Notes: a model not told the origin generated them from the letters alone. A DNA stretch of 28,472 nt from a virus (IMGVR_UViG_3300021090_000086:1-28472), one strand, 5' to 3'; positions 2,607 to 28,372 are shown, counted from the first letter of the stretch. Program-made: numbers and translations.

Positions 2607-2640
2607 CGAGTTCGCAGAGCCGTTTAAATGGTGCGATGTT

Positions 2641-2682
2641 GGAGGCGGCAACCTACGTGCTCTTGCCGCTTCCATGCATTTT
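2641..2682 (+). terminator. Terminator-like hairpin after the tail tube gene
   Basis: GGAGGCGGCAA (2641-2651) pairs with TTGCCGCTTCC (2663-2673), 11 bp with one G-U pair and an 11-base loop, followed by ATGCATTTT. The T run is short, so it may be a partial terminator that lowers transcription of the chaperone relative to the tube gene. Confidence 0.6.
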
Positions 2683-2702
2683 AGAAAGAAGGATTTGAGA
2701 CA

Positions 2703-12482: not shown

Positions 12483-12809
12483 ATGGTTCGCCGCGTCTCC
12501 AGGAAGCCGCACAAGGCTGCCATTGATCCGGCGGTGCTCCGTGCGATTGAAGTGGCGGCGGAGCGCGCGGCCACGCGTGCAACGAAGAAGTTTTTACTGG
12601 CTCTTGGAATCAATGCGACCAAGCCCGAAGACGTTATTGAATCGCAGAAGGATTCGAATTTTACCCGCACGCTACGCTTGGGCGCTGAATCAAAATCAGC
12701 GAAGATTAGTATTTCTATAATTGGTTTGGTCTTCTCGATTGCTGGCTATTTGGTGATTAGCGGCATTCATTGGCTTGTTGATTATTTCCGTGCAAAGGGA
12801 TTGCAGTAA
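12483..12809 (+). CDS. Small membrane protein of the lysis cluster
   Basis: A 108-residue protein. The basic N-terminus (RRVSRKPHKAA) is followed by an Ala/Glu/Arg helix (AVLRAIEVAAERAATRATKK) and a single transmembrane helix near residues 78-100 (ISIIGLVFSIAGYLVISGIH). Short proteins of this pattern (soluble helix plus one C-terminal membrane segment) occur beside holin genes in alphaproteobacterial phages. It may be a holin partner or antiholin; the sequence does not decide. Confidence 0.55.
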   Translation: MVRRVSRKPHKAAIDPAVLRAIEVAAERAATRATKKFLLALGINATKPEDVIESQKDSNFTRTLRLGAESKSAKISISIIGLVFSIAGYLVISGIHWLVDYFRAKGLQ

Positions 12810-12810
12810 C

Positions 12811-14493
12811 ATGGCGGGTCATCCGTTCCCCTCTGATGCTGAATTGCGGAAGGATATTGACGCTTATATGCAATCGGGCGGTAATCGTTCCGAAGCGTCA
12901 CGCCTTCGCAACATGCCGCGCAAATCGTTTTGCGACCGGCTAGAGAAGGCGGCGAAGAAGTTTGGCGTTACACTCGGCAAGGTCGTTGATGGCCGCGTGG
13001 ATTATGTTGAAGCGATCAAGCGCCCTCTGCCCAAGGGGCGCAGCGTGGCGCGCTATATCCTCTCATCCTGCCAGAATAACACGCATCCACACCCCGGCTG
13101 GAAGAACCTCTTGGCCTATCGTGATTGGCTAAGTGATGGCCGCGGCACATGCGAGTTCATCCTTGGATCGTTCTCCTACCAAATGGACGCCTACGGTGCG
13201 AAAGCCGTGAAGCGCGGGACCTACAAGCGGCAAGGGAAGCTTTGGTATGCCCCGGAGCTTGTGCCCTATATCAATGATGAATCGATTCAACTCGCGCCCG
13301 GTTTGGTGTGGTGCGGCGAGATGAATATTCTTCCCACGGCGGACAATCCGTTGGTGAAGCTGGAAGACTACAATGGCCGTAGCTCGAATATCGTGCCGCA
13401 TGCGAAGATCGCGATGGAGTCGGTTGGTTCCCTCGCGGACGAAGCTACAAAGTTCAACTACTCAACCGGGACCGTCACACAGCGCAACTACATTCAAAAG
13501 CGCGTGGGCCAGATATCGGAGCGCAAACATAACTATGGTGCACTTATTGTCGAAGTCGATTCGCAAGGTAATTGGTACGTTCGGCAATTGCACATCGGCG
13601 ATAAGGGCGAGATTTACGATATTGGGCCATCCGGATATCGCGGGATCAAGATTCAAAACGAGAAGGTGACGGCGTTGCAAATCAATGAGCCACCTTCCCG
13701 TACATTTCTTGAGGCTGTTAGATGGGGTGATATTCATGCGGTAGAGATGGAGCTTTGGGTGCGTGAAGTGGGTTGGGCAGAAGGCGGAATGGTTGACCAA
13801 CTCGCGCCGCGCAAGCAAATCATGGACGATATCTTTTCTATGCGCTCACGCGGGCATCATGAGCTTTACAACTTCCATCGCACTTATGAAAAGCACGTCA
13901 ACAACGAAGGGTCCGTTGAAGATGAAATGAGTGTCACGGCCGACTTCTTAAAGGAGGCGGATCGGCCCTGGTTAGAAACTGTGGTGGTGCGCTCCAATCA
14001 TTGCCGCCACCTGAACCAATGGCTTAATGAAGCGCACCCGGAGCGTGATCCATTAAACGCGCGTTATTTCCACCATCTCCAAGAGCAAATTCTAGCGGCA
14101 ATGGATTCCGGGGATCGCGACTTCAATATTTTGGAATGGGCTCTTCGCCATTGCGAGGGTGGAATTCCGGATCGGGTTCGCTTCTTGGGCGAGGATGAAT
14201 CCTATATTATCTGTAAGAACTACCACGGCGGGATCGAAAACGGATTGCACGGTGATATTGGGGTGAACAATGCGCGAGGTTCAACTCGCGGCTTGAAGAA
14301 GCTAGGGCGAGCCGTCAGCAAGAACCACGATCACACGGCGGCGATTAGCGGCAGGGTCTATTCCGGCGGTGCGTGTAGCTTGCGGTTCCCTTACATGAGG
14401 GGGCCGAACACGCATTCCATTTCCCACACTCTCGCGTTTGAGAATGCGGCCCGGCAAATCATCACATTCTGGAACGGGAAGTTTCGCGCCTAG
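12811..14493 (+). CDS. Helix-turn-helix plus calcineurin-like metallophosphoesterase phage protein (T5 A1-like group)
   Basis: A 560-residue protein. I chose ATG 12811, right after the previous stop and with AAGGGA upstream, over a TTG at 12775. Residues about 5-45 look like a helix-turn-helix (DAYMQSGGNRSEASRLRNMP). The middle has GEMNILPTADNPLVKLEDYN and TGTVTQRNYIQKRVGQ, which I associate with a group of phage proteins related to T5 A1. The C-terminal half carries phosphoesterase-like motifs: VVRSNHCRHLNQWL (about 391-405), LHGDIGVNNARGS (about 478-491) and KNHDHT (about 502-507). Family members are metal-dependent phosphoesterases. Recognised from pattern; T5 A1 is tied to host DNA breakdown, but that role here is only a possibility. 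Confidence 0.65.
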   Translation: MAGHPFPSDAELRKDIDAYMQSGGNRSEASRLRNMPRKSFCDRLEKAAKKFGVTLGKVVDGRVDYVEAIKRPLPKGRSVARYILSSCQNNTHPHPGWKNLLAYRDWLSDGRGTCEFILGSFSYQMDAYGAKAVKRGTYKRQGKLWYAPELVPYINDESIQLAPGLVWCGEMNILPTADNPLVKLEDYNGRSSNIVPHAKIAMESVGSLADEATKFNYSTGTVTQRNYIQKRVGQISERKHNYGALIVEVDSQGNWYVRQLHIGDKGEIYDIGPSGYRGIKIQNEKVTALQINEPPSRTFLEAVRWGDIHAVEMELWVREVGWAEGGMVDQLAPRKQIMDDIFSMRSRGHHELYNFHRTYEKHVNNEGSVEDEMSVTADFLKEADRPWLETVVVRSNHCRHLNQWLNEAHPERDPLNARYFHHLQEQILAAMDSGDRDFNILEWALRHCEGGIPDRVRFLGEDESYIICKNYHGGIENGLHGDIGVNNARGSTRGLKKLGRAVSKNHDHTAAISGRVYSGGACSLRFPYMRGPNTHSISHTLAFENAARQIITFWNGKFRA

Positions 14494-14846
14494 GGGCAGT
14501 CCGGACGGGCGTACTGATAGCGTCGAATTCCGTCTGGATCGGTTTGAGCGATTGGCTTGCAACGCTCCATCCATTCGCGGTCCCGGGCGCGAGCCGCCGC
14601 ACTGGCCGCTAGGGCGCGTTCTTCGGCGAGGCGTTGTTGATCTAGTCGGTGGAGCCGATCCGCTTGTTGGTCTTCCTCAGTGCGATAGATACCGGCTCTT
14701 CGGTCTTGCTCCTTGATCGCGTCAAGAAGCTCCATGCCTGTTTGATATTCGGAGCAAGGGATTTCAGTGAAGAACCGATTAGTACAGCCCATGGCCGCCG
14801 TAGCCCCGGCGAGGGTCAACAGAGCGGCAAGCGTTATGCGTTTCAT
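14490..14846 (-). CDS. Exported coiled-coil protein, possible lipoprotein or spanin-like
   Basis: A 118-residue protein starting at ATG 14846, with GGAG nine bases upstream inside a 12-bp palindrome. A TTG five codons earlier is less likely. It has a signal peptide, MKRITLAALLTLAGATAAMG, followed by Cys; the site is not a good lipobox. Residues about 45-95 are charged and helical (DQQADRLHRLDQQRLAEERA). Cys pairs occur near both ends. It converges on the late operon; the two genes share a CTAG, so each stop lies within the other. A spanin-like or envelope role is speculative. Confidence 0.6.
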   Translation of the reverse strand: MKRITLAALLTLAGATAAMGCTNRFFTEIPCSEYQTGMELLDAIKEQDRRAGIYRTEEDQQADRLHRLDQQRLAEERALAASAAARARDREWMERCKPIAQTDPDGIRRYQYARPDCP

Positions 14847-14847
14847 C

Positions 14848-14859
14848 GGAGTCGACTCC
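14848..14859. promoter_or_regulatory. 12-bp palindrome over the ribosome binding site of the exported protein
   Basis: GGAGTCGACTCC is a perfect palindrome that contains the GGAG ribosome binding site for the leftward ATG at 14846. It may be an operator or a translational control element, or chance. Confidence 0.3.
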
Positions 14860-14861
14860 AA

Positions 14862-15065
14862 AGTTCAACGCCGGCAATGATCGGCCTAGATCGTAAAATC
14901 TTCCTGAAAACGTGGTGGGACATTCGAGGAAATACGGGCTTGGAAGTCAATGGGATGAAGCGTTGTCCCACTTCTTCCTAACCCGTTGTTTCAACAAGAA
15001 TTTGGAGGCCCGGGCCCGGCCTCTAGCGGCTGGATTTCGTTTTGATTTTGTTAGGATATTTTCAG
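14862..15065. other. Non-coding region beside the integrase, candidate attP
   Basis: No gene is visible here. It holds GTGGGAC (14915-14921) and GTCCCAC (14965-14971), a 7-bp inverted pair whose sequence recurs in the hairpin just to the right, and a GC-rich palindrome GAGGCC-N7-GGCCTC (15005-15023). Phage attachment sites usually lie next to the integrase gene in such gaps. The core cannot be identified without the host sequence. Confidence 0.35.
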
Positions 15066-15094
15066 AAAAGTCCCACTAGCCTATTCAGTGAGAC
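15066..15094 (-). terminator. Rho-independent-like terminator of the integrase operon
   Basis: On the minus strand GTCTCAC and GTGGGAC form a 7-bp stem (one U-G pair, 15070-15076 with 15088-15094, 11-base loop), followed by TTTTC. It lies nine bases past the integrase stop codon. A near-identical copy is at 18018-18046. Confidence 0.65.
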
Positions 15095-15102
15095 AAAGCC
15101 GG

Positions 15103-16203
15103 TCATGTGGGTATATCTCCGGTCTTCGGCGCTTCGAGCATATGCATTGCAGCCCCGGCGAGCCGCTTCTGATCAGCCGCCCGGGTGTAGAGTTCCGCTT
15201 GTTTCAGAGTATCCCAACCGAAGATGGCCATGAGTTGATGCGCAGTCGCGCCGTTCTCCGCTGCTAGGGTCGCGCCGGCCTTGCGGAGCCCGTGGGCTGT
15301 GCAGTTCAGAAGCACTGCTTGGTCGCACCATCGCCGCATTCGGACGTTGAAGCCGCCGTCTGTGAAGGCGCAGCCATATTGGTTAACAAGGTAAGTCAGG
15401 TCGCCGCAGGGGGACGCTGCGATAATCCTCTCAAGGATAGGCAGGAGCGGCAACGTCAACCGCTTCGGTTTCCGGTTACGATTTTTGTGTTGTGTAAATG
15501 TGAGCTTTCCCGCGCGAGCGTGCTGGCGACCGAATCGGATCGCGTCGGAAGGTCGTTGCCCGGTGAACAGCATGAGGGCAAGCGCCAGATACGCCTTGGT
15601 CCCTACTGGGTGACGGCGGATGTATTGCGCGACTTCATCCACATCCCAAGTATGATGCCCGGTTGATCCGGTCTTGAAATAGCTCACGTCGCGCGCCGGG
15701 TTGCTTGGCGTATATTTCTTTTTGAGTCCGAATTTGAAAACGTTGCGGATCGCCTTTAATCGATTATTGGCTGCCTCCGGAACAGCAATTTTCCGGTCAC
15801 GCAAGACTTCAACAGCATCAACGTCAAACTTCGAAATCGGAAAGTCTCGATAGAGCTTCGGCGAACCCGGTGCGATTGGTTCGTCATACGTCGCTTCAAG
15901 AATGAGCTTGTAGCGTTTTTGTGTCTTGGCATCCAACCATTTGTACTCGGAGCATTCGGCGAGGTAGCGAACGCAAAGCCAACGCCACGTATCTAGCTGA
16001 ATCGTAGCTCTCGCGACCGGCGCGATCCCGCTCTTGGCCTCTTCATAGAAGGCCATAAACTCCGGCGTCCAAGGCGTGGCGCGAATGCGTACCTTCTTAC
16101 GGCCCTTGGCGCGGTAGTAAATGCGGATGTTGCCGTGGCGATCCGGGTCTTCAACGCAGCCTTCTGGCAATCGACGGGGCATAGCCTCACATTGTAGCAT
16201 CAT
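15103..16203 (-). CDS. int: Tyrosine site-specific recombinase (phage integrase)
   Basis: A 366-residue protein. I chose ATG 16203, which overlaps the excisionase stop (ATGA) with GGAAAG upstream; ATG 16182 would give MPRRLPEG and 359 residues. Catalytic residues visible: Arg in FTGQRPSDA (about 217), Lys in THQHKNR-like FTQHKNR (about 240), His and Arg in AHGLRKAG (304, 307), Trp in FGWDTLKQ (330, often His elsewhere) and Tyr in AELYTR (339). The N-terminal half is a DNA-binding SAM-like region. It would join phage and host attachment sites. A terminator follows at 15066-15094. The last 23 codons have a diverged relic at 18198-18269. Confidence 0.92.
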   Translation of the reverse strand: MMLQCEAMPRRLPEGCVEDPDRHGNIRIYYRAKGRKKVRIRATPWTPEFMAFYEEAKSGIAPVARATIQLDTWRWLCVRYLAECSEYKWLDAKTQKRYKLILEATYDEPIAPGSPKLYRDFPISKFDVDAVEVLRDRKIAVPEAANNRLKAIRNVFKFGLKKKYTPSNPARDVSYFKTGSTGHHTWDVDEVAQYIRRHPVGTKAYLALALMLFTGQRPSDAIRFGRQHARAGKLTFTQHKNRNRKPKRLTLPLLPILERIIAASPCGDLTYLVNQYGCAFTDGGFNVRMRRWCDQAVLLNCTAHGLRKAGATLAAENGATAHQLMAIFGWDTLKQAELYTRAADQKRLAGAAMHMLEAPKTGDIPT

Positions 16204-16439
16204 ACAGACGCTTTCCAATCGGCCGTGGTGTCCGCCTCTTCGATTGGTAAATCATCAAAAGTTAGGTCTAGGCTGTGAACATCCCACACCTTACGGCCGT
16301 CAATGAGCCTGGGCGGCCCCACGCGGCCATCCTTGCGCATCTCGTCAAACTTGGAGGGGGAGATGCCGATGTAGACGGCCGACTCTTCGCGCGAGAGCCC
16401 GCGCCGGGGGATCGTCCGGGAGGCGGGGCGAGGGCTCAC
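16200..16439 (-). CDS. Excisionase-like helix-turn-helix protein
   Basis: A 79-residue protein. I chose GTG 16439 because AGGAG lies eight bases upstream; TTG starts at 16457 and 16499 would lengthen it. It has RRGLSREESAVYIGISPSKF then RLIDGRKVWDVHSLDL, the MerR/AlpA-like winged-helix pattern of many recombination directionality factors. Its stop overlaps the integrase start, so the two are co-translated. By position and fold it probably directs the integrase towards excision. Confidence 0.75.
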   Translation of the reverse strand: MSPRPASRTIPRRGLSREESAVYIGISPSKFDEMRKDGRVGPPRLIDGRKVWDVHSLDLTFDDLPIEEADTTADWKASV

Positions 16440-16445
16440 GGGAAC

Positions 16446-16466
16446 GGCTCCTATCAATACAGAGCC
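16446..16466 (-). promoter_or_regulatory. Inverted repeat over the excisionase ribosome binding site
   Basis: GGCTC (16446-16450) and GAGCC (16462-16466) form a 5-bp stem with an 11-base loop; the AGGAG of the excisionase overlaps one arm (16448-16452). The same element recurs at 18273-18295, where the excisionase itself is gone. It could hide the ribosome binding site. Confidence 0.4.
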
Positions 16467-16504
16467 AACCCTACGCGCGGCGGGGATAGCCTCAACCAAC
16501 GATG

Positions 16505-16585
16505 CTAAGTCGTCGTCGTCGTCGTCGTCGTCGCAACAATCTCCGCCCTAGTCAGCTTGTCACCAATCTTTGGAATTGTTTTCAC
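16505..16585 (-). CDS. Short ORF ending in poly-threonine, uncertain
   Basis: A 26-codon ORF (GTG 16585, TAG 16505-16507) that overlaps the end of the degraded gene to its right. It begins VKTIPKIGDKLTRAEIVA and ends in eight Thr codons made by a GAC/ACG trinucleotide run (16509-16533). It may be the start of a longer gene whose rest was lost, or not be translated at all. Confidence 0.3.
   Translation of the reverse strand: MKTIPKIGDKLTRAEIVATTTTTTTT
16509..16533. repeat. GTC trinucleotide microsatellite, about eight copies
   Basis: The plus strand reads GTC repeated from 16509 to 16533 without interruption, lying between the excisionase and the degraded small gene. In one minus frame it gives poly-Thr. 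Such a perfect run is unusual for this window. Confidence 0.9.
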
Positions 16586-16723
16586 GATTGAGCCTCTTCA
16601 ATCGAACTGATCACATCATCCAATGATGAAACAGCGTTGTTGAGAGCTCATTTCAAGCTCCGACTTAACTTCTTCCAGCTTGTCGCGGAGCTTGTCGAGT
16701 TCTTTTCGGCGAGCTTTGTTCAT
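16582..16723 (-). pseudogene. Broken copy of the coiled-coil protein gene at 18774-19004
   Basis: From ATG 16723 the first 25 codons match the intact gene (MNKARRKELDKLRDKLEEVK then SELEM). The middle 30 or so codons, NAERDSYDNM to ADAL in the intact copy, are missing, and the join is out of frame, giving a stop at 16616 after 35 residues. In the other frame the lost ending is still readable: NNAVSSLDDVISSIEEAQS and a TGA at 16582-16584. This is a deletion derivative. A 35-residue peptide may still be made. Confidence 0.75.
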
Positions 16724-16896
16724 TGTTCGCACCGCCACGCTTCCACATGCCATTCACCACGGCAGACTTGAAGAAGCCCACACCAACCGGGCTTGCTCCA
16801 TCCCCGGATAGGCTGCATTTGCAATCCAAGCTTACGTAAGAAGGCCCGCGCTTCATCCATGTCCTTCGAAGCAAAATGCAATTCAGCGGTGCTCAT
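16720..16896 (-). CDS. Small protein, paralogue of 19001-19186
   Basis: A 58-residue protein starting at ATG 16896. Its start overlaps the stop of the gene to its right, and its stop overlaps the next ATG at 16723 (ATGA both times). The core is FLRKLGLQMQPIRGWSKPGW followed by GLLQVCRGEWHVEAWRCEQ. The paralogue at 19001-19186 shares GWSKPGW-GLLQVCRGEWH. Function unknown; conserved Trp/Cys residues suggest a small folded domain. Confidence 0.65.
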   Translation of the reverse strand: MSTAELHFASKDMDEARAFLRKLGLQMQPIRGWSKPGWCGLLQVCRGEWHVEAWRCEQ

Positions 16897-17042
16897 GTTG
16901 GAGCCTTCCAGTCCGCTAGACGTTTCTTTAGATAAGTCACGTCCGCCCGGGCCCTTTGGAATGAGCTTTCTGTCTCGTGATATTCACCCCGGAACAAGCT
17001 CGCGTAAGATCGGCCGCCCGTCCAAAATTCTTTCGCTATCAC
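16893..17042 (-). CDS. Small ORF, possible severed end of the gene to its right
   Basis: From GTG 17042 this gives 49 residues (IAKEFWTGGRSYASLFRGEY, then RARADVTYLKKRLADWKAPT). The same frame is open upstream to the TAG at 17079-17081 that ends the Zn-finger-like gene, and the codons between (VYPRPENWDYTP) look coding. It could be an independent gene with a weak GGGA site, or the 3' part of one gene cut by the amber codon. Its TGA overlaps the ATG at 16896. Confidence 0.5.
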   Translation of the reverse strand: MIAKEFWTGGRSYASLFRGEYHETESSFQRARADVTYLKKRLADWKAPT

Positions 17043-17078
17043 CGGCGTATAATCCCAATTCTCAGGTCGCGGATAAAC

Positions 17079-17369
17079 CTATTCGGGTCCTAGTGCGGTG
17101 CTCCAAGCATCGCGAGGTGTGTACTTCATTTCGGCGGGCGGCTCATTGATCAGCCGATTTAAATGCGCAACCTTGCCATCACGATAGAGAGTCGCGGCCT
17201 TGATCGCATCCGGGAGCGCGTCGCATGCAATTTCATATGGACGATAGCGAGCGCCGAAGCATGAAGACGTTTGCCAGCCATCGCCCGGGCGCTTGTAGCC
17301 GTGGTGAGCGATGACGCCCGTGTTGGCTAAGATTGCGCGCCCGCAGATTTGGCAATGCGTGTTGGTCAT
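17079..17369 (-). CDS. Small zinc-binding-like phage protein
   Basis: A 96-residue protein starting at ATG 17369 with TGAGG upstream. The N-terminus has CQICGRAI, then IAHHGYKRPGDGWQTSSC, a Cys/His set (CxxC, HH, C) suited to one zinc ion; I know similar phage hypothetical proteins with this stretch. The C-terminus reads YTPRDAWSTALGPE and ends in TAG. The frame continues open past the TAG. Function unknown. Confidence 0.7.
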   Translation of the reverse strand: MTNTHCQICGRAILANTGVIAHHGYKRPGDGWQTSSCFGARYRPYEIACDALPDAIKAATLYRDGKVAHLNRLINEPPAEMKYTPRDAWSTALGPE

Positions 17370-17373
17370 TGCC

Positions 17374-17598
17374 TCAGTCCTCAAGATCAATAGTGGATGA
17401 CTGTTCAATGTCAGCGGCCAGCTTACGAGCATCCGCTGCTTGTTTCTCGAAACAGGCGATGAATCTTGCGCGGGCTTCTAGAGGCAAGATTTCACCGCGT
17501 TCTGCTGCTTTCGCTGGCGAAAAAAATGCTGCATCTTGCTCATATTGATCCGCCGCAACTATTAAGGCGTTGGCTAGTGTGTGGCGCTTGGCAATCAT
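17374..17598 (-). CDS. Small helical hypothetical protein
   Basis: A 74-residue protein. ATG 17598 has GAGGG nine bases upstream; another ATG at 17613 is possible. It is Ala/Glu-rich and helical: HTLANALIVAADQYEQDAAF and RFIACFEKQAADARKLAADI. It precedes the zinc-binding-like gene by four bases. I do not recognise a family. Confidence 0.55.
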   Translation of the reverse strand: MIAKRHTLANALIVAADQYEQDAAFFSPAKAAERGEILPLEARARFIACFEKQAADARKLAADIEQSSTIDLED

Positions 17599-17648
17599 CG
17601 GAATGGCCCTCATTCATTAGATGGCTGGTATGACGCGGTGTTATTGGA

Positions 17649-17840
17649 CTAGCTCCCGAACATTCCGCCGGTCCGCTGGCGCGCGGTCTCGCCTGATCCC
17701 TGCCGTTCACCAGCTTGAAGCTTGGCGCGCATCTGCGCCACTAAATTGGACGCGGGCTTCTTCTCCGGTTCGCCGCGCATCGGACGGGATGTGAAGTGCG
17801 CGTCCTTGGTGATTGAGTAGAACTGTCTCCAAATGCTCAT
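17649..17840 (-). CDS. Small conserved protein, paralogue of 19479-19661
   Basis: A 63-residue protein starting at ATG 17840 with AGGAG eight bases upstream. It shares RQFY(S/T)I and then FTSRPMRGEPEKKP and LVAQMRAKL with the 60-residue protein at 19479-19661; the C-termini differ. It lies directly behind a promoter copy at 17902-17929. In the other duplicate a DUF932 gene sits between promoter and paralogue. Function unknown. Confidence 0.65.
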   Translation of the reverse strand: MSIWRQFYSITKDAHFTSRPMRGEPEKKPASNLVAQMRAKLQAGERQGSGETARQRTGGMFGS

Positions 17841-17847
17841 GACGACA

Positions 17848-17869
17848 ACTCCTGTTTCCAGAAAGGAGT
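17848..17869 (-). promoter_or_regulatory. Hairpin over the ribosome binding site of the 63-residue protein
   Basis: ACTCCT (17848-17853) and AGGAGT (17864-17869) are complementary with a 10-base loop; one arm carries the AGGAG ribosome binding site. One arm comes from the DUF932-type leader and the other from this gene's own leader, so it arose at the deletion junction. Confidence 0.35.
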
Positions 17870-17901
17870 ATCGCAAAATTGTAAACAGAAGTCCATTTCC
17901 A

Positions 17902-17929
17902 GTTATAGGGGTGCCTAACGCCGGGTTAA
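17902..17929 (-). promoter_or_regulatory. Leftward promoter, copy 1
   Basis: On the minus strand TTAACC (17924-17929) and TATAAC (17902-17907) are separated by 16 bases, a sigma-70-like arrangement. The surrounding 110 or so bases match 20866-20974 closely. It would drive the 63-residue protein gene and those to its left, including excisionase and integrase. Confidence 0.55.
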
Positions 17930-17964
17930 TGCCCTACTTTTTCAGGGTTTACGGCGTATGTCCG
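17926..17964 (-). pseudogene. Last 12 codons of a copy of the 94-residue protein gene
   Basis: The minus strand reads RTYAVNPEKVGH and a TAA, matching the end of the gene at 20935-21219 (RTYAVNPEKIGH). Nothing of the rest of that gene is here. It is a relic carried along with the duplicated promoter and marks the right end of duplication copy 1. Confidence 0.75.
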
Positions 17965-18017
17965 GGCCCGGCTTCCATCTGATAAATTCCGATTTGATTT
18001 TGTTAGGATATTTTCGG

Positions 18018-18046
18018 AAAAGTCCCACTAGTCCCTTCGGTGGGAC
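18018..18046 (-). terminator. Rho-independent-like terminator, second copy
   Basis: On the minus strand GTCCCAC and GTGGGAC form a perfect 7-bp stem (18022-18028 with 18040-18046), followed by TTTTC. It matches the integrase terminator at 15066-15094 and would end the leftward transcript of duplication copy 2. Confidence 0.65.
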
Positions 18047-18201
18047 CCGGCCTTGACCCGTTTTCGTTCACGTCGGCTAGGTGGTTGATCCTGCGAACCT
18101 CCTGGACGACGTTTTCCAGGTAGGGATAGCGCTTGTAGGGCGTCAAACCAAGCGAGGAAGGCGCGCTGCGCCTTCTGGCAGGCATCGGGGAGGTTAGTCA
18201 T
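18028..18201 (-). CDS. Small ORF behind the integrase relic
   Basis: A 57-residue ORF from ATG 18201. Its start overlaps the stop of the integrase relic as ATGA, the coupling seen between real genes here, and GGAG lies about ten bases upstream. It begins MTNLPDACQKAQRAFLAWFD and ends in a basic tail (SRRERKRVKAGSHRRD); the stop falls in the terminator stem. A 60-residue ORF in another frame (18003-18185) is the alternative. No homologue is recognised. Confidence 0.4.
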   Translation of the reverse strand: MTNLPDACQKAQRAFLAWFDALQALSLPGKRRPGGSQDQPPSRRERKRVKAGSHRRD

Positions 18202-18272
18202 GGAATGGCTTCTCCAGTCTTTGGCGGCTCAAGAAGCATATGCATTGCTTCCCCGGCGAGCCTCTTTTGATA
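18198..18272 (-). pseudogene. Integrase 3' relic
   Basis: The minus strand reads QKRLAGEAMHMLLEPPKTGE and AIP then TGA, clearly the end of an integrase like that at 15103-16203 (QKRLAGAAMHMLEAPKTGD). Directly to its right comes the excisionase leader, so about 1.3 kb holding the rest of integrase and excisionase is missing. Confidence 0.75.
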
Positions 18273-18330
18273 CGGCTCCTGTCAAATACAGAGCCAACCC
18301 TACGCCCGGCGGCGACCGTCTCAACCAACG
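18273..18330. repeat. Second copy of the excisionase leader sequence
   Basis: This segment, beginning CGGCTCCTGTCAAATACAG, matches 16446-16505 with a few changes, including the GGCTC/GAGCC stem. No excisionase follows. The rest up to 18435 holds no gene I can support. Confidence 0.7.
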
Positions 18331-18435
18331 AAGCGAACAGTTGAATCTAGGGCAGAGCCATGACGCGGGCAACGGCATATGCGCCGCGGTTGTGTAATCT
18401 TTCATGATCAACAAAGCTTTGTGCATCTGAGCGTT

Positions 18436-18777
18436 TTAGATTTTTGATTGTCCAATCAGGAAGCTGGCCGGGTCTATGATGACTTTTTTAGACGCATCAA
18501 AAACAACCCAATGCCAGTTCTTACGCCTCATGTTGGCTTTGAGTAGAGCATTGTGTTTTAGTGTTTCAACGTTGTCCGGACCAAGAGGTTTAAACCGATC
18601 AGATAAAATCTTTACGCCAAGGCGTCGAAGAGCGCGAATACAGGCTTTCGCGTTTATTGGCTTACCATACTCACTAGAGCGGAACGCAGCCTTGGCATCC
18701 TCATAGGAAACCCTAGCCAACATCGCGACACATGCGATTCCACAATCGGTACGGTTTCGTTGGGCAATTCTGATCAC
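18436..18777 (-). CDS. C39-like cysteine peptidase family protein
   Basis: A 113-residue protein starting at GTG 18777, overlapping the previous stop as GTGA. It opens with QRNRTDCGIACVAMLARVSY, the Cys-helix of the papain-like C39 fold (probable nucleophile in DCGIAC). NWHWVVFDASKKVIIDPAS near residues 87-105 supplies the His and Asp. It consists of the bare domain, with no signal peptide or ABC transporter. Such short proteins in phages are usually of unknown substrate; a protease or an inactive relative are both possible. It is present only in duplication copy 2. Confidence 0.75.
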   Translation of the reverse strand: MIRIAQRNRTDCGIACVAMLARVSYEDAKAAFRSSEYGKPINAKACIRALRRLGVKILSDRFKPLGPDNVETLKHNALLKANMRRKNWHWVVFDASKKVIIDPASFLIGQSKI

Positions 18778-19004
18778 GACACAGCCTCATCAACTGAACT
18801 GATCGCATCATCCAACGATGAAACCGCATTGTCGAGAGCGTCGGCCGCGGCTTCGGACTGTGTTCCGCGCTCGCCTTGCTGCAAGCTCTCTGGCATGTTG
18901 TCATAGGAATCGCGTTCAGCGTTGGCAAGCATTTCAAGCTCTGACTTAACTTCTTCCAGCTTGTCGCGGAGCTTGTCGAGTTCTTTTCGTCGGGCCTTGT
19001 TCAT
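18774..19004 (-). CDS. Small coiled-coil protein, intact copy
   Basis: A 76-residue protein starting at ATG 19004, which overlaps the stop of the gene to its right. It is highly charged: NKARRKELDKLRDKLEEVKS, then an acidic ending (AADALDNAVSSLDDAISSVD). A broken copy lies at 16582-16723. Probably forms a helical hairpin or dimer; function unknown. Confidence 0.6.
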   Translation of the reverse strand: MNKARRKELDKLRDKLEEVKSELEMLANAERDSYDNMPESLQQGERGTQSEAAADALDNAVSSLDDAISSVDEAVS

Positions 19005-19186
19005 CGCTCGCACTCCCAAGCCGCAGCATGCCACTCGCCACGGCAGACTTGAAGTAGTCCAAGCCAACCGGGCTTGCTCCAACCGCTCACGGGATGCCGC
19101 TGCAATCCGAGTCCGCGCAAGAAGTCGCGCGCTTCATTCTCGCTAGTCGAAGAGAAATGCAACGCGCCGTCATGGTCAACGGTCAT
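19001..19186 (-). CDS. Small protein, paralogue of 16720-16896
   Basis: A 61-residue protein starting at ATG 19186, overlapping the stop of the gene to its right (ATGA). It has FLRGLGLQRHPVSGWSKPGW then GLLQVCRGEWHAAAWECER, closely like the 58-residue paralogue, with an N-terminus of its own (TVDHDGALHFSSTSENEA). Function unknown. Confidence 0.65.
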   Translation of the reverse strand: MTVDHDGALHFSSTSENEARDFLRGLGLQRHPVSGWSKPGWLGLLQVCRGEWHAAAWECER

Positions 19187-19350
19187 GACACATTCCAAAA
19201 CTTTATCAGTCGAATCCGCTCACGCCATTGTCGTATTGTGCGTATTGTCTTGATAGCATTTCGAATTTGGTTGCGCACCCATTTGCCATGCACCGTATGA
19301 TGACGATCTCCCAATAAAGATTTCAGCCCGGCATTAAGCGTTGGACTCAT
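19183..19350 (-). CDS. Small basic hypothetical protein
   Basis: A 55-residue ORF from ATG 19350, ending in a TGA that overlaps the ATG at 19186. It is very basic (GKWVRNQIRNAIKTIRTIRQ, then WRERIRLIKFW) and could bind nucleic acid. A longer version from TTG 19437 would overlap the neighbouring small ORF more. Supported by the ATGA coupling only. Confidence 0.4.
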   Translation of the reverse strand: MSPTLNAGLKSLLGDRHHTVHGKWVRNQIRNAIKTIRTIRQWRERIRLIKFWNVS

Positions 19351-19486
19351 GGCCTGCAAGATGCCGTAAGCAATCTGCCCGGTCATAACCAAGGCTCTTC
19401 GCTTGCGCAAAGCACGCTTCAAAATTGTTGCCAGCAAACCCAGCGAGCAATTTTTCAGCGGCAGACGGACCAGATTTCTTAAGCAT
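19334..19486 (-). CDS. Small hypothetical protein
   Basis: A 50-residue ORF from ATG 19486, overlapping the end of the gene at 19479-19661 by eight bases. It reads like a compact helical protein (KKSGPSAAEKLLAGFAGNNF, SLGYDRADCLRHLAGHE). Unknown function; it overlaps the next ORF by 17 bases. Confidence 0.4.
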   Translation of the reverse strand: MLKKSGPSAAEKLLAGFAGNNFEACFAQAKSLGYDRADCLRHLAGHESNA

Positions 19487-19661
19487 TGGTCCGCCTAAAC
19501 GCGCCGCGTTGCTGCACGGGTTCGTGCTGTTCGCCGGTCAACTTAGCGCGCATCTGCGCCACTAGATCGGACGTGGGCTTCTTCTCCGGTTCGCCGCGCA
19601 TGGGACGCGACGTGAAGCGTGCCGTTTCGTTGATCGTGTAGAACTGTCTAGGGATGGCCAT
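19479..19661 (-). CDS. Small conserved protein, paralogue of 17649-17840
   Basis: A 60-residue protein starting at ATG 19661 with AGGAGAGG upstream. It shares RQFY, FTSRPMRGEPEKKP and LVAQMRAKL with the 63-residue paralogue. It follows DUF932 after a hairpin (19690-19715). Function unknown. Confidence 0.65.
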   Translation of the reverse strand: MAIPRQFYTINETARFTSRPMRGEPEKKPTSDLVAQMRAKLTGEQHEPVQQRGAFRRTNA

Positions 19662-19689
19662 AGGGGCCTCTCCTGCTTCTGGATGGGGA

Positions 19690-19715
19690 GGCCCCCGGCC
19701 GTGCGGCCAGGGGCC
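19690..19715 (-). terminator. GC-rich hairpin after the DUF932 gene
   Basis: GGCCCC (19690-19695) pairs with GGGGCC (19710-19715), and inner GGCC (19697-19700) with GGCC (19705-19708), around GTGC. It lies between the DUF932 stop and the next ATG. There is no T run, so it may protect or attenuate the transcript more than terminate it. Confidence 0.45.
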
Positions 19716-19725
19716 ATTTGCTTCG

Positions 19726-20826
19726 CTAGGCCGCTAGGGCCATCTCGCGCCATTCACTCGCCGGGAGTTCGATCACGTTCGCGCCGAGCCGTTCGAATTC
19801 TGTGGCCCGGTCGTAATCGTCCAGGTCTTGCGCGGCGCGCGTGACGGCGTTGTAGAGGCCGAAGCGGGATAGGTCGCCGCCTTCGATCAGATGTCGGAGG
19901 ATGCTAGTCCCTTCGCCTTCGGTCATGCCGAAGCGCTTGGTGGTGAGGTTCACGACCTTGACCGGATCGCCTTCGATCTTGTGCGAAGCGGTCTCCGCGA
20001 TCTTGTCGCAAAGCGAGTCGAAGGAAGCGCGCTGGAACGCACCCTTCACGATATCGGTGACTTGAGCCCAAAGGGCGTCATTGGTCTTCCGGCGCGTCGC
20101 GTCGGACAATAGCGCGTAGATGTCTTCGCCACCGATTTCGTGCTTGCCTCCAACGTGGTACTTGCGAGTTGAGCGCTCACCGAACGTCGCGAGGTTGGAA
20201 CAGAAACCGTCGTATACGCCACCAAGAACTGAAAGCGCGCCCATCCCGACTTCACTGTTAGAGATGGTGACGGCGGGAGAAAGACAACGGACGATGTTAT
20301 GTCCGCCGTCGCCAAACTTGCCGCCGATGGCCTTCAACTCGCGTTCAATCTTGCGATCCACCGCCTTGATGTAAAGGCGACGGTCCGTAATTTCGGACGA
20401 CATAACCGCAAGGTCCATATCCATGAGCGCCGGAAGCACGGCTTCCGCAAGCTCTTCGTTCTCCAACGGCCGATAACGATCTGAGAGGAACGCGCGAGCC
20501 GTCCCGTCCAGCGTGCGAACCATGCGCGCAACGGGCTCCTTGCCGAACCATGCGTTGACGTTGGTACAGAGCAACGCCGGATCACTGGTCAACATGCGGT
20601 CGTAATACTTCTTCGGGATATCGACGTGTTCCGCAATCTGTTGATTGGCGATGCTGTTGACTCCGACTTCGAAGGCGTCGGCGATTTGAAGGTGAACCCG
20701 CGCGGTGGAGAGCAACGGGGCTTTGATCATGGTGACGTGATCGGTTTTCACAACCACGTCTTTCTTGGCCGCGGCCCGGCGCTCGATTTCGCGGGCTAGG
20801 TCTTGAAGGCTCTTTCCGGATTTCAT
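19726..20826 (-). CDS. DUF932 family phage/plasmid-like protein
   Basis: A 366-residue protein starting at ATG 20826 with GGGAGA upstream. It has the DUF932 pattern: IAEHVDIPKKYYDRMLTSDP near residues 64-83, LDGTARAFLSDRYRPLENEE (about 105-124), SNSEVGMGALSVLGGVYDGF in the middle and a helical C-terminus. Related proteins are common in phages and plasmids; their role is unsettled, with replication or anti-defence use suggested. It has its own promoter at 20911-20938 and is missing from duplication copy 1. Confidence 0.8.
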   Translation of the reverse strand: MKSGKSLQDLAREIERRAAAKKDVVVKTDHVTMIKAPLLSTARVHLQIADAFEVGVNSIANQQIAEHVDIPKKYYDRMLTSDPALLCTNVNAWFGKEPVARMVRTLDGTARAFLSDRYRPLENEELAEAVLPALMDMDLAVMSSEITDRRLYIKAVDRKIERELKAIGGKFGDGGHNIVRCLSPAVTISNSEVGMGALSVLGGVYDGFCSNLATFGERSTRKYHVGGKHEIGGEDIYALLSDATRRKTNDALWAQVTDIVKGAFQRASFDSLCDKIAETASHKIEGDPVKVVNLTTKRFGMTEGEGTSILRHLIEGGDLSRFGLYNAVTRAAQDLDDYDRATEFERLGANVIELPASEWREMALAA

Positions 20827-20910
20827 TGACTGTCTCCCTTACGGCGTGATTGCCGGGTCGTTACTTCCGAAAAGGAGTATCTCAAAACCTAAAACAGGAG
20901 TCCATTTCCA

Positions 20911-20938
20911 ATTATAGGGGTGCCTAACGCTAGGTTAA
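20911..20938 (-). promoter_or_regulatory. Leftward promoter, copy 2
   Basis: On the minus strand TTAACC (20933-20938) and TATAAT (20911-20916) are 16 bases apart. The -35 overlaps the stop codon of the 94-residue protein gene. CCTA-ACGC-TAGG, partly between the boxes, is a possible operator; its right half is changed in the other copy. It should drive DUF932 and the genes to its left. Confidence 0.6.
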
Positions 20939-21219
20939 TGCCCTATTTTCTCAGGGTTTACGGCGTATGTCCGGAGCTTGGCCCCGAACTCCGCTACGGC
21001 CATTTTGATGATTCGATATCGGCGGCCCCGGTCCGTGATCTTGTTCCTCTCCAATAGCCGACGCAGCGCGAGCACATGCACCATGAAGAGGACGCCTATT
21101 TGCTCTTCGGGTGATAAATCAAACTGTTGCAACATCGTGTCGGCGGCGTGCATCGCGCTATTGAGTCGGAGTTTGCGGCTCTCAGGCTCCGTCGCGGGCT
21201 CCGTCTGTGTCTCTGTCAT
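20935..21219 (-). CDS. Hypothetical helical protein
   Basis: A 94-residue protein starting at ATG 21219, overlapping the previous stop (ATGA). An acidic N-terminus (TETQTEPATEPESRK) leads to helices, LSPEEQIGVLFMVHVLALRR and RYRIIKMAVAEFGAK. Its last 12 codons are repeated at 17926-17964. Unknown function; may be a small regulator. Confidence 0.55.
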   Translation of the reverse strand: MTETQTEPATEPESRKLRLNSAMHAADTMLQQFDLSPEEQIGVLFMVHVLALRRLLERNKITDRGRRYRIIKMAVAEFGAKLRTYAVNPEKIGH

Positions 21220-23677: not shown

Positions 23678-25188
23678 AATGACAGTCCTTCTAAAAAATC
23701 CCGGAGGCCCGTTCCCGCAATGGCGTCCGCAACGTTAATCCGCTTTGTGACCACCGAACGAATGTATGCATCAGGACCGGGCGCTTCGAAATCAACGACT
23801 TCAATATTCTTGCCGCCTATCTTCGTCGCGCGCTCCATAGCCTGTTGTCGCAAGCGAGCGCTGAAAGTGTGCGAGTACCAAATAATCTTGGAGGCAACGG
23901 ACATATCTTGACCGCGCCCACCTGACTTAGCGTGTCCGACAAGAGGCTTTATGCTCCTATTTTCACGGAATGATGTGAGAGCATTTAGCTTTTCCTTGTC
24001 GGACACTCGACCATGGTATTCGGCGACTTTATGCCCGTCAGCCAACAAACGCGCCACCACGAAATCAATATCCGGCTGAAACTGGCACCAAATAATCACC
24101 TTGCCGGGCGCTAGATAAACCTCTTTGGAGAGCGCTTCGAGTCGCGGATTCACGCCTGGAATCTTTTTCATCTGGCCGAATTCATCAAACACAAATCCGC
24201 TGAATACCTGTTGCAATTTTCCAAGCCGCGCCGCGCGCTCGCCGACTGACACGCGCTCCTTCCCAATGCTTACAATGTAACCGCGGTGAAGCTCGCGATA
24301 GACTTCCATTTGCTCCGGTGAAGGCGTGATCTTGCGCAGCACCGGAACAAGGTCGGGCATGTCCGTACAATCTTCGCGCAACACAACGCTTGTGAGCCGC
24401 GCCATTCGCTTGCGCAGATCGTCTTCGTTCTTATATCCAACTACTTTTGCGAAGCTTCGGCCGCGGATGTTGCGAGTTTCTTCAACGGCATATTGCGCTT
24501 TGAAGTCTGCATACGTATCGAAGCCAAGCGCGCCCTTTTCCAACAATTCAAATTGGCTAAACGCGGCAAGTGGGCTCCCGGTGATCATCGTTCCGGATAG
24601 GATATCTCGGAACAAGCAATGACGCGCCATGGCGCGGGCCATCTTGGTACGTTTACTGCCCGGCGTTCCAAAGTCATCGCTTTCATCAAAGATTGCGAGG
24701 ACGCGGCGATGCTTAAGGAAACGCGCGACGGCTTTCCGCACGTCTGGCCGTGTCATGCTTTCAGAGTTGATCGCTAGCCACATAAGCCGCGAGTTACTCT
24801 TAATAGTGGCGAGCTGTCGCCACCATTGCGCTTGCCGCGCATGCCATGCTTCATGCTCCGCTTTGGGAAGGCGCTTGACCGCTTTGATACCTGAGATGAC
24901 TGAGCGCCACACAAGCCCATCATGCGGGACACCATCCCACATATGAATCGGCAATTCACGTTCGATCCAATTAGCATGAACGCCGTTGGGAGCGAAGATC
25001 AACACGCCGTCAATCAAGCCGCGCTTGTAGAGATGACACGCGCGATCAATTTCCGCTTTGCTCTTGCCTGTTCTCATACTCCATGCCAATGCCTTGCACG
25101 GAGCGTCAACGCGCAATTCAAATTCACGCAATTGATGCTCATAACACTTGGTTTTGAAGTTTGCAGATAAAAGAGCTTCGGTGCTCAT
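23674..25188 (-). CDS. SNF2/DEAD-type superfamily 2 helicase
   Basis: A 504-residue protein starting at ATG 25188. Motifs in order: Q-like YEHQ (16-19), Walker A SMRTGKS (37-43), motif Ia VLIFAPNGVHANW, Walker B IFDESDD (about 165-171), motif III SGTMITGSP (about 199-207), KVIIWCQFQPDIDFVVARLL in the second lobe, and motif VI near 455-470 (RLRQQAMERATKIGG). Such phage helicases unwind or translocate on DNA in replication or recombination. Coupled to the HNH gene upstream. Confidence 0.85.
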   Translation of the reverse strand: MSTEALLSANFKTKCYEHQLREFELRVDAPCKALAWSMRTGKSKAEIDRACHLYKRGLIDGVLIFAPNGVHANWIERELPIHMWDGVPHDGLVWRSVISGIKAVKRLPKAEHEAWHARQAQWWRQLATIKSNSRLMWLAINSESMTRPDVRKAVARFLKHRRVLAIFDESDDFGTPGSKRTKMARAMARHCLFRDILSGTMITGSPLAAFSQFELLEKGALGFDTYADFKAQYAVEETRNIRGRSFAKVVGYKNEDDLRKRMARLTSVVLREDCTDMPDLVPVLRKITPSPEQMEVYRELHRGYIVSIGKERVSVGERAARLGKLQQVFSGFVFDEFGQMKKIPGVNPRLEALSKEVYLAPGKVIIWCQFQPDIDFVVARLLADGHKVAEYHGRVSDKEKLNALTSFRENRSIKPLVGHAKSGGRGQDMSVASKIIWYSHTFSARLRQQAMERATKIGGKNIEVVDFEAPGPDAYIRSVVTKRINVADAIAGTGLRDFLEGLSL

Positions 25189-25625
25189 GGCCCAGCCCTT
25201 CTAAAGGAGGCCCCAACCTTGTCGGTCCATCGTCCTTTGCAGAAATTATAGATTAGAGACACAACACGGGTATTTCGTTTTGTGTAGCCTTTACGCGGCT
25301 TGATTTGATCAAGTGAGGGCTGCCAAGGATGATAGCGAGTTTTTGTGCTCTTTCCCCAATTCAGACGATGGCCAGTTACAGAACATCGCATCGGGCGGCA
25401 CATCATCGCTATATCGTCATAGGTAAGGATGAACGGAATTCCGAACAGCCGGGCACGTTCTCGCGTGTCGTGATACAAGGCGCGGACTGGATATCGATTT
25501 CGGTAGCGGCGTTTGTAGCCCGGATTGCGTTTATACCAATCACGGTTGCCAGCACGCCGTTCTTCCTTTTTATGTTCGGGAAGACTGGCTCTCCATGCGC
25601 GATGATATTCGGGATTGTAGGTCAC
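25185..25625 (-). CDS. Free-standing HNH-type endonuclease
   Basis: A 146-residue protein whose ATG overlaps the polymerase stop (ATGA) and whose stop overlaps the helicase ATG. The N-terminus is basic (KRNPGYKRRYRNRYP). The C-terminal part has CRPMRCSVTGHRLNW, then WQPSLDQIKPRKGYTKRNTR, an HNH-like betabeta-alpha fold of the SLDQI...GYT..N type seen in phage nucleases, in which the usual first His of the motif is replaced. It may be a homing nuclease. Its place next to an intein-bearing polymerase gene suggests a link, which is inference. Confidence 0.7.
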   Translation of the reverse strand: MTYNPEYHRAWRASLPEHKKEERRAGNRDWYKRNPGYKRRYRNRYPVRALYHDTRERARLFGIPFILTYDDIAMMCRPMRCSVTGHRLNWGKSTKTRYHPWQPSLDQIKPRKGYTKRNTRVVSLIYNFCKGRWTDKVGASFRRAGP

Positions 25626-28372
25626 TTCCTATATCTCTCATAAGTCTTAGCTTCCGCGCTGATTGGGCAACCTTTGTAGCAAGCAGGCATCGCGGACATG
25701 AGCGCTTCGAATTCGCCCCGGTCACCCTCGCCGTCATCCGCCTCCGAAACAACTTCGTCATGTACGGAGATGAGCAAATCGTAAGTGGGATGCGCTTCAA
25801 GTTCGATCTTCGCCGAAGCGAGCACGTCCCGCGCAATCGCTTGCGTTATGTTCTCACAATTATGAACGATTAAGCAGCGGGTTCGGTCCGCAGAGCGAAT
25901 AACAAACCGATTCCGTGGACCGCAGTTCGAAAGATCGAATACCCGCGCTTGTGTCGATAATAGGCGGTTGACCTTGATACGCCGTGGTTGCTCCCCGCAT
26001 AATGCATAGCGGTCAGGTAATGAAACCGCTGCTCTGTTATATCGATTGCCCGATGATGCATATTTCCAACCTCTATCCGTCAAAACTTCATGATCAGGCG
26101 TCATCCACATTCCATCGCAACTGATTACTTCCTTGATACCATTGAATGCGACTCCGCCGTGGTAAACCCACTCAACTCCATCCCACACGCGGTCTTGCAT
26201 GCGAACCTCTTGGATCGGAACCCACCCATATTCCGTCAACACATCCGTCTCTTCGGCAATGCAAAGCTTGCCGCCGTAGGAGCTTTGACGAGTCCACTTT
26301 TTCGTCTTTTGATCAATCCCCATGAAGCGCAACGACGGCCGCGACTCGCCCCATGAAGTCTTGGCCATCTTAATTTCAGGATCGCAATAGTTGAGTGTGC
26401 GGCCAGAGGGCAGACGACATTTAAGGAAGCGACCTTTCATGTACCAAGTTACAACGCCGCACTTTATCTTGCGCTGCTCAATCGGCTTGCCTTGGAGCCG
26501 CACGGCTTGTATCGCCGCGGCCTCCTGGTCCTTCCACATCTGCGGCACTTCCGGATAACGACTGCGGTACGTGTCAACGGTGAACTTGCACAATGCGAGT
26601 TCGTGGATGATCTTTTCCGGGTCCTCGCGTTCATCGGTCAATCGACGCTTGGACATAGAGGCTTCGCGACACGCAGCCTTGTGCTTCTTAGCGTCGTAAC
26701 CATCGTCCTTGGTGAAATCGGCTTGCGACGGGAAGAGCTTCTTGTGAACGATCCGCTCATATTTGGCGAGCCGCGCCGCACCCATCATCTTGAGCACGTC
26801 TTTCCGTGTAAGATAAATGTTATAGGTGCGCAGTGTGATCAGGAATTTGATGTAACCCATTCCATAACCAAGGCCCAACACGGCGACCTTACCGAAGTCG
26901 CGTTGTGTGGAGCCCATAGCATTGATGACTTGAGCAATTCGAGCCTCTGGGTTTTTTGCGAGAGCTTTTTCATCCTTGACGATTTGGTAGCCGTAGATTC
27001 CAGACGCCATGTCGCAATAAATGTCGCCGCCCTCGAAGAATACGTTCAATGCCGCTGTTGCGCCGCTCTCCCAAAGCACGCATCGCGCTTCAATGGCCGC
27101 ATAGTCCGCGGTCCAAAGCTTGCGACCGGGCGGGGCTATGATCGAACCACGCAAACACGACGCAATTAGATTCATCGCGTCGTCCTTGCCGTCTAGGAAT
27201 TCACACCATTGTAAATCGCGCGACTTGATCGCCGCGCAAGCCTCATCGATGGAGATACCTTTGACGAATTTGCCTTTAGGCAAATTGTGTATTTGTATGC
27301 CGCGACCGGCAAAGCGGCCCGTTCTCTCTGCGCCGCAGTACAACAGAAGCTCGCGGGCTCTGTTGTCTTCATCAACACACTCCAACATGCGTTGATATTT
27401 GTTCGTGGAGGTGCGGTTGACTTCCTTGACAATTTCAATGACGCGGCGGCACCGCGGCGAAAGCTCCATGCGGTCAAGAATCCATTCAAGGGTCTTTGCT
27501 TTGGTGTCCGGCAGTTGAATCAATTCTTCGTTGGCTAGCCAATTCTTGATAACAGCGCGTTGCGTTGCGGACTCGATACCGGTCATCTCCCGTAGCTCGG
27601 CATTCGCTTTGATCTTGGCGCGGGCAACAAGGTGAAGAGCGGCTTTAGCTAGATCAACATCAATGAGCACACCACGACGATTCATCTTCTGCGTGATGTG
27701 CCAAACGTTTTGCTCCATCGGAGATAGATCGGGGAGAGCATTCGACAATCCCATTTCAGCGCGAACGTCTTGTTTGTTGTAGCTCCAAATCTGTTCGATG
27801 CCTTCAACGTCTTCATTCCAAACTAATTCATCATCGCCGAATATCTCGCGCTCCGCCTTCGTTAGCTTTTTGGGCTTGCTGTATTTCTTCAACAGCGCTT
27901 CGCCGCGCGGGTCCTTCTTGACGGCGAGGTTGAGCGCACTAATCGCGCCATCCAAGGCGCGGGGCAGGGCGTGTGCCGCGGCTTTGGCGGCGGAGCACAG
28001 CCATTGATCTTCATAAATCTCCGGCCAACCGTGTTGAGGGACGGCGACGTGTTCCCAAACGTAGGTTTCAAATGCGGCGTTGTGCGCTTCGATCTTGCCG
28101 CCGGTCGCGATGTACGCAAACAAATCCTCCGGCGGTGCGCTCTCTTCGATACCAATAGCCGGGTGCGCTCTATGCCAAAGCTTCGGCTCCTTCGGGTCCA
28201 TACCGGGCAGATGATATGAGAGGCAAAGGAGTTGGGTTGAAGGATGCTTGGAATAGAGCCACGCGCCACGGCCCTTGCGTCCTGCTAGTTCGCAAGCACT
28301 GCGAGTTTCAAAATCAATAGTGCAGCGGGGAGGGCGCTCGGGCCGCCCGCGCGAGCGGACTAGTGCGGCCAC
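25622..28372 (-). CDS. Family A DNA polymerase with 3'-5' exonuclease, intein-containing
   Basis: A 916-residue precursor starting at GTG 28372, 781 residues after splicing. Exonuclease motifs: IDFET (19-23), HNAAFETYVW (97-106) and YNKQD (198-202). Polymerase motifs: A, TADYAAIEAR (421-430); B, RDFGKVAVLGLGYGMG (491-506); C, SVHDEVV (869-875). This is the phage replicative polymerase, with proofreading. An intein (residues 704-838) splits GGKL from CENITQA between motifs B and C, so activity needs splicing. The gene heads the leftward operon and overlaps the HNH gene by four bases. Confidence 0.92.
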   Translation of the reverse strand: MAALVRSRGRPERPPRCTIDFETRSACELAGRKGRGAWLYSKHPSTQLLCLSYHLPGMDPKEPKLWHRAHPAIGIEESAPPEDLFAYIATGGKIEAHNAAFETYVWEHVAVPQHGWPEIYEDQWLCSAAKAAAHALPRALDGAISALNLAVKKDPRGEALLKKYSKPKKLTKAEREIFGDDELVWNEDVEGIEQIWSYNKQDVRAEMGLSNALPDLSPMEQNVWHITQKMNRRGVLIDVDLAKAALHLVARAKIKANAELREMTGIESATQRAVIKNWLANEELIQLPDTKAKTLEWILDRMELSPRCRRVIEIVKEVNRTSTNKYQRMLECVDEDNRARELLLYCGAERTGRFAGRGIQIHNLPKGKFVKGISIDEACAAIKSRDLQWCEFLDGKDDAMNLIASCLRGSIIAPPGRKLWTADYAAIEARCVLWESGATAALNVFFEGGDIYCDMASGIYGYQIVKDEKALAKNPEARIAQVINAMGSTQRDFGKVAVLGLGYGMGYIKFLITLRTYNIYLTRKDVLKMMGAARLAKYERIVHKKLFPSQADFTKDDGYDAKKHKAACREASMSKRRLTDEREDPEKIIHELALCKFTVDTYRSRYPEVPQMWKDQEAAAIQAVRLQGKPIEQRKIKCGVVTWYMKGRFLKCRLPSGRTLNYCDPEIKMAKTSWGESRPSLRFMGIDQKTKKWTRQSSYGGKLCIAEETDVLTEYGWVPIQEVRMQDRVWDGVEWVYHGGVAFNGIKEVISCDGMWMTPDHEVLTDRGWKYASSGNRYNRAAVSLPDRYALCGEQPRRIKVNRLLSTQARVFDLSNCGPRNRFVIRSADRTRCLIVHNCENITQAIARDVLASAKIELEAHPTYDLLISVHDEVVSEADDGEGDRGEFEALMSAMPACYKGCPISAEAKTYERYRK
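25859..26263 (-). mobile_element. Mini-intein, 135 residues, no endonuclease domain
   Basis: In-frame insertion at polymerase residues 704-838. It begins with Cys (CIAEETDVLTEYGW, block A), has GMWMTPDHEVLT (block B with T..H), ARVFDLSNCGPRNRF (block F-like) and ends LIVHN before Cys+1 (block G). Only about 44 residues separate B and F, too few for a homing endonuclease. All nucleophiles and the penultimate His are present, so it should splice. Removal restores the conserved GGKL-CENITQA. At 135 residues it is near the smallest known. Confidence 0.85.

Follow-up and report, generated by a model that had tools for sequence, protein, structure and literature searches.

Two diverged copies of an early and integration module lie one after the other in a 28,472-nucleotide viral record (IMGVR_UViG_3300021090_000086), the whole of which we call the window. 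Every gene of copies A and B is on the minus strand (Table 1). To judge from its layout, each copy is a complete operon with a sigma-70-type promoter, small genes, xis and int (only remnants in copy B) and a terminator. In copy A, the promoter p_A is followed by the RQFY gene, two private genes, S2, an S1 pseudogene, the xis leader, xis, int and the terminator t_A. Copy B begins with p_B, a phrog_1362 family gene, RQFY, a variable stretch, S2 and S1, and continues with a C39-peptidase-like gene, the xis leader, an int remnant, a 57-aa ORF and the terminator t_B.

Table 1 Features of the duplicated region and segments shared by copies A and B
Feature	Position	Strand	Remarks
Copy A	15010-17965	-	head to tail with copy B
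Copy B	17962-20974	-	head to tail with copy A
Repeat, terminator	A 15010-15094 / B 17962-18046		82%
Repeat, int end	A 15116-15173 / B 18211-18271		80%
Repeat, xis leader	A 16444-16508 / B 18272-18337		86%
Repeat, S1 end	A 16574-16647 / B 18766-18839		81%
Repeat, S2 + S1 start	A 16649-16881 / B 18930-19162		80%
Repeat, RQFY	A 17721-17858 / B 19542-19679		78%
Repeat, promoter	A 17856-17965 / B 20865-20974		88%
t_A, copy A terminator	15010-15094	-	hairpin then TTTT, 3′ of int; CCGG at outer edge
Tyrosine integrase (int), copy A only	15103-16182	-	ATG (MPRR) at 16182; ORF open from 16218
AlpA/Xis-like regulator (xis), copy A only	16200-16439	-	most likely GTG start at 16439, behind AGGAG
xis leader, copy A	16444-16508	-	86% to 18272-18337; probably non-coding
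S1 pseudogene, copy A	16582-16723	-	aligned to intact B gene: 89-bp net deletion, frame shifted
S2, copy A	16720-16896	-	66% aa identity to S2 of B
Two genes private to copy A	17079-17613	-	17079-17432 (phrog_11549) and 17374-17613
RQFY gene, copy A	17649-17840	-	68% aa identity to RQFY of B
p_A, copy A promoter, with G remnant	17856-17965	-	-35 TGGACT 17890-17895; -10 GATACT 17867-17872
A/B junction	17962-17965		CCGG common to both ends
t_B, copy B terminator	17962-18046	-	82% to t_A
57-aa ORF, B only	18028-18201	-	ATG overlaps int stop (ATGA)
int C-terminal remnant, B	18199-18271	-	reads QKRLAGEAMHMLLEPPKTGEAIP, then stop
xis leader remnant, B	18272-18337	-	abuts int remnant; counterpart of A 15174-16443 deleted
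C39-peptidase-like gene, B only	18436-18777	-	PF03412 5e-4
S1, intact, copy B	18774-19004	-	phrog_4068 1.6e-24; one homologue in each of 4 relatives
S2, copy B	19001-19198	-	paired with S2 of A
RQFY gene, copy B	19479-19661	-	paired with RQFY of A
phrog_1362 family gene, B only	19726-20826	-	between promoter and RQFY
p_B, copy B promoter, with 3′ end of gene G	20865-20974	-	-35 TGGACT 20899-20904; -10 GATACT 20876-20881
Gene G, intact	20935-21219	-	directly upstream of copy B; 35-39% matches in L093 and L142

When the whole window was compared with itself by BLAST, seven direct-repeat segments were found, all collinear (E 2e-8 to 3e-56), and no other repeat at E <= 1e-3. The segments are 58-233 bp long and 78-88% identical, and the shared part amounts to only ~730-760 bp of each ~3-kb copy, the remainder being copy-specific. 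The sequence-only reading had proposed a diverged tandem repeat at 15010-20974 with six segments in constant order and a dot-plot line at an offset near 2952. The repeat and its order are confirmed, the number of segments is seven, and the offset of 2952 holds for the first segment only. The other six lie at 1821-3098, which breaks the line, because the gaps between segments are filled with different, unrelated genes. The same reading had pointed to a CCGG shared with both ends at the join. This is borne out: CCGG is present at each of 15010, 17962 and 20971, which gives the inner junction four bases in common with both outer ends. On one side the junction interrupts gene G, and on the other it meets the outer edge of the terminator. 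Of 143 loci compared (window included, 2.2 Mb), few have diverged collinear direct repeats of similar summed length, and the repeat in the window has more segments than any other.

The integrase of copy A matches the catalytic domain family PF00589 (3e-9; 37.3 bits against a Pfam cut-off of 27.1) and phrog_1 (1e-28). It is of the phi2LM21 type, with 46.5% identity to the integrase of Sinorhizobium phage phi2LM21 and 65% to that of a Bradyrhizobium iriomotense locus, L024. As in the window, an AlpA/Xis-like regulator precedes a tyrosine integrase of this family in both, and L024 also has a GTCCCAC...GTGGGAC hairpin behind int. However, we found no relation to the rest of the module in either. 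The regulator of the window matches phrog_25900 (1e-11) and, more weakly, the excisionase families phrog_66 and phrog_9834. What had been labelled an excisionase leader is probably non-coding: xis most likely begins at the GTG at 16439, and when the leader is read from the upstream TTG, the differences between A and B break the frame or are non-synonymous. Between this leader and the S1 pseudogene, copy A alone has eight GTC triplets in a row (16509-16532). The t_A hairpin has a folding energy of -11.3 kcal/mol (z -2.8), whereas t_B folds no better than shuffled sequences.

Both copies have a promoter-like site, TGGACT-N17-GATACT, just behind the end of gene G. A different sigma-70 reading, TTAACC-N16-TATAAT, was dropped in favor of this arrangement, which recurs in related phages. 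The upstream edge of copy A still contains the final 12 codons of another gene G, otherwise lost (RTYAVNPEKVGH vs RTYAVNPEKIGH). One of the two private genes of copy A (17079-17432) has a 61% protein homologue in L091, near the module-distal end of that locus. This gene, on the minus strand and matching phrog_11549, also has 73-79% DNA matches in large Caulobacter/Brevundimonas phages, e.g., CcrRogue.

The copies were previously said to differ by an integrase and excisionase in one and DUF932 and C39 genes in the other. The difference in content holds, but the supposed DUF932 gene has no DUF932 match in Pfam (E <= 0.1) and no match in NCBIfam. It belongs instead to PHROG 1362 (4e-39), a family of unknown function, and is 63-67% identical to proteins of four IMG/VR contigs. 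The C39-like gene scores 20.2 bits against PF03412, just under the curated Pfam cut-off of 22.

Some of these differences are losses. Since the int remnant of copy B abuts the xis leader, int and xis appear to have been removed by one 1.27-kb deletion that spared the last int codons. Conversely, S1 of copy A is, by its alignment to the intact gene, disabled by a frameshifting 89-bp net deletion. The proposal of reciprocal gene loss thus holds for int and xis and for S1. It probably does not extend to the phrog_1362 gene. In copy A, nothing separates the promoter leader (GGAAACAGGA; ...CTCCTTTCTGGAAACAGGAG) from the RQFY start, and in L141-L143 a similar leader likewise meets the first small gene without a gap. 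In copy B, the leader seems to be in two halves, one on either side of the phrog_1362 gene. An insertion into B therefore accounts for this gene better than a loss from A does.

Phages with 64-70% identity to the DNA-transfer gene that adjoins copy A (12775-14493) provide a comparison. We used L093 (G409), from a 60-kb contig, and L088/L141 (G406), L089/L142 (G407) and L091/L143 (G408), in which L141, L142 and L143 come from three 54-59-kb IMG/VR records. L093 and L141-L143 share with the window the late gene for the DNA transfer protein, the helicase, a number of small genes and S1, and the order of these genes is unchanged. L141-L143 also share PolA (58-65%), whereas the L093 locus ends short of it. 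Gene G, which anchors the synteny, has a similar sequence in L093 and L142; in L141 and L143 we recognized it from its position and C-terminus. In contrast to the window, all four have one module and a single S1, in the order helicase, small genes, G, promoter, S1, and none has a collinear multi-segment tandem repeat at the module site. A promoter-like TTGAC(T/C)-N17-(-10 box) with a CCTTT-rich leader follows the G stop codon once in each of the four and twice in the window. The relatives with a single copy that the earlier reading had suggested looking for thus exist, and two marks of a tandem duplication or a join are present: microhomology at the ends and single-copy relatives at the same place.

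The relatives differ from the window in other respects. Their integrase, located near the module in L093 and at the contig end in L141-L143, is unrelated to that of the window by tblastn, and S2 and RQFY are absent from the four IMG/VR relatives. A small gene outside the module of the window (14490-14861, minus strand) partially matches L093:15898-16239, which is inside the module beside S1. The location of this gene may have shifted among the relatives.

Apart from weak matches (E 0.0005-0.01, one per genome) that we presumed to be chance, phage records, IMG/VR and 399 genomes of the L024 host family gave no relative of S2 or RQFY. Nor did these collections yield a phage with only A-like or only B-like S2 and RQFY. 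Given this lack of relatives in everything searched, A and B cannot be placed on tree branches. Searching IMG/VR with one protein at a time, either the integrase or the helicase, also gave none. Searches of 398 + 385 genomes with the module DNA gave mainly integrase and xis fragments and matches to the GTC run, along with a few further short, weak matches (E 1e-4 to 1e-3). A pattern search with the promoter DNA had one match, in L019, which we rejected as chance.

The sequence-only reading allowed for either an old duplication or the joining of two related phages. The near-identical copies that would mark a recent tandem duplication are absent, given 78-88% identity and dS 0.83 in the intact genes. 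We considered when A and B diverged relative to their gene losses, using the coding scraps orphaned in one copy, where they should drift: the int end (orphan in B) and the S1 and G ends (orphans in A). These scraps, which total only ~50 codons and were chosen by BLAST similarity, have a pooled dS of 0.47, dN of 0.10 and omega of 0.20, close to the omega of 0.22 for S2 and RQFY, which are intact in both copies. The changes in the scraps are mostly synonymous and in-frame. In the int end, B has an in-frame codon insertion, 6.5 of 10 changes are synonymous, and frame and stop are kept. B also shares EP with L024 (EDAMHLIEP), whereas A has EA.

The observed synonymous fraction was 0.54, compared to 0.34 in simulations in which the genes were lost at the moment of duplication and then drifted, a scenario that can thus be rejected (P about 0.003). 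No more than ~60% of the divergence came after the losses at the 5% limit, so at least ~40% preceded orphaning. Because the synonymous fraction exceeds the expectation for immediate loss, much of the divergence predates the losses, and therefore arose while both versions still worked. Two separate phages are the simplest setting for this, and two side-by-side integrases in one genome seem less likely. A join between phages predicts that the copies diverged largely before redundant genes were lost, and the data agree with this (omega 0.20, P 0.003), although up to ~60% of the divergence may be later.

A true tandem duplication of ~2.95 kb within one lineage, by slippage or template switching at CCGG, would have to have kept both copies functional for a long time before reciprocal loss. 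The junction microhomology is exactly what such an event would leave, the order and boundaries agree, and G+C is equal in the copies (55%), which is neutral toward a join. A long-kept pair of functional copies would also produce the identical codon pattern, which counts against the join, as do the failure to find phages with only A-like or only B-like S2 and RQFY and the small number of orphan codons. However, the pre-orphaning divergence would require two int genes to have coexisted, four relatives lack the duplication, and a 3-kb repeat in one genome is prone to collapse. Identical 3-kb tandem repeats collapse readily via homologous recombination. The codon evidence and the one-copy relatives thus favor a join, and we regard a long-functional duplication as possible, if rather unlikely.

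We consider it probable that the region is a partial diploid, created by the end-to-end illegitimate joining of two related temperate phages, X and Y. Recombination would have been illegitimate because the identity at the junction is only 4 bp. X and Y would have carried a matching operon at a matching place. During coinfection, or through a large deletion between tandem X and Y prophages, gene G of X would have been linked by its 3′ end to the Y terminator at its outer edge, giving the order late genes, t_A ... p_A, t_B ... p_B, G and replication genes. Such a genome would be only ~3 kb longer than usual. Its modules, already ~20% different and patchy, would not have collapsed by homologous recombination. 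Redundancy, or separate earlier histories, could account for the int-xis deletion in B and the S1 frameshift in A. The product would have two tandem operons, in which p_A is expected to drive xis and int, and p_B to drive S1, the phrog_1362 gene and the C39-like gene.

The join at 17962-17965 could instead be an artifact, a chimera produced when sequences of two related phages in one sample were assembled or amplified. The 28.5-kb record, all of which is the window, is most likely a fragment, since the relatives lead us to expect a genome of about 60 kb, and the join was not found in any second record. However, only 4 bp are common at the join, and 4 bp is too short for an assembly k-mer overlap. 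Moreover, both operons are complete and correctly oriented, with cuts within ~100 bp of the outer edges of promoter and terminator, which is rare for random chimeras. A chimera thus appears very improbable.

The motif GTCCCAC/GTGGGAC occurs six times in the window versus 2.2 expected, including at 14915-14921, 14965-14971, 15070-15076 and 18022-18046, around the terminators behind int. Based on this distribution, the motifs are possible integrase arm sites. The integrase itself might have made the join, by recombining the attP of Y, near its terminator, with a secondary site where gene G of X ends. The join adjoins the best-conserved stretch of the terminator segment (GAAAATATCCTAACAAAATCAAA), a place where one would expect an attP downstream of int, and the GTCCCAC motifs cluster near it. 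However, a 4-bp junction is shorter than the usual core of a tyrosine recombinase. The attachment site of phi2LM21 is in a tRNA-Phe gene and int of L024 is beside tRNA-Leu, whereas the window has no tRNA gene that could serve a tRNA-type attP. We give this site-specific event hardly any credence.

Mosaic temperate phages that arise by homologous, relaxed homologous or illegitimate recombination between related phages are well described (PMC8136500), as are recombinants between two temperate phages (PMC10700106). As in our preferred explanation of a join, related temperate phages exchange DNA in these cases, and the lysogeny module is affected. In the window, however, the module is not swapped; both versions are kept in tandem with complementary losses, which is the less usual feature. 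The string “duplicat” is absent from PMC10700106, and we found nothing on point in the literature on hybrids from tandem prophages. If two phages were joined, the window catches phage mosaicism midway, with both lysogeny modules present and complementary losses under way. It would offer a concrete system in which the resolution of such joins can be tested, and the codon analysis offers a means of distinguishing a join between phages from duplication within a phage plus decay.

Selection might also have kept both copies, an ancestral early and integration operon having been split into a lysogeny operon (p_A with xis and int) and an early operon (p_B with S1, the phrog_1362 gene and the C39-like gene). 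We find this quite doubtful; if true, it would be a phage case of module duplication followed by division of labor, with diverged promoters.

Elsewhere in the window, a free-standing HNH endonuclease gene (25185-25625, minus strand) is located directly behind the polymerase gene, and we found no homologue of it in L141-L143. The polymerase gene, PolA (25622-28372, minus strand), has a 136-residue insert at 25856-26263 (KL^CENITQ). The PolA proteins of L141-L143 align on both sides of this insert but do not have it. The insert looks like a mini-intein (C704 ... HN|C840).
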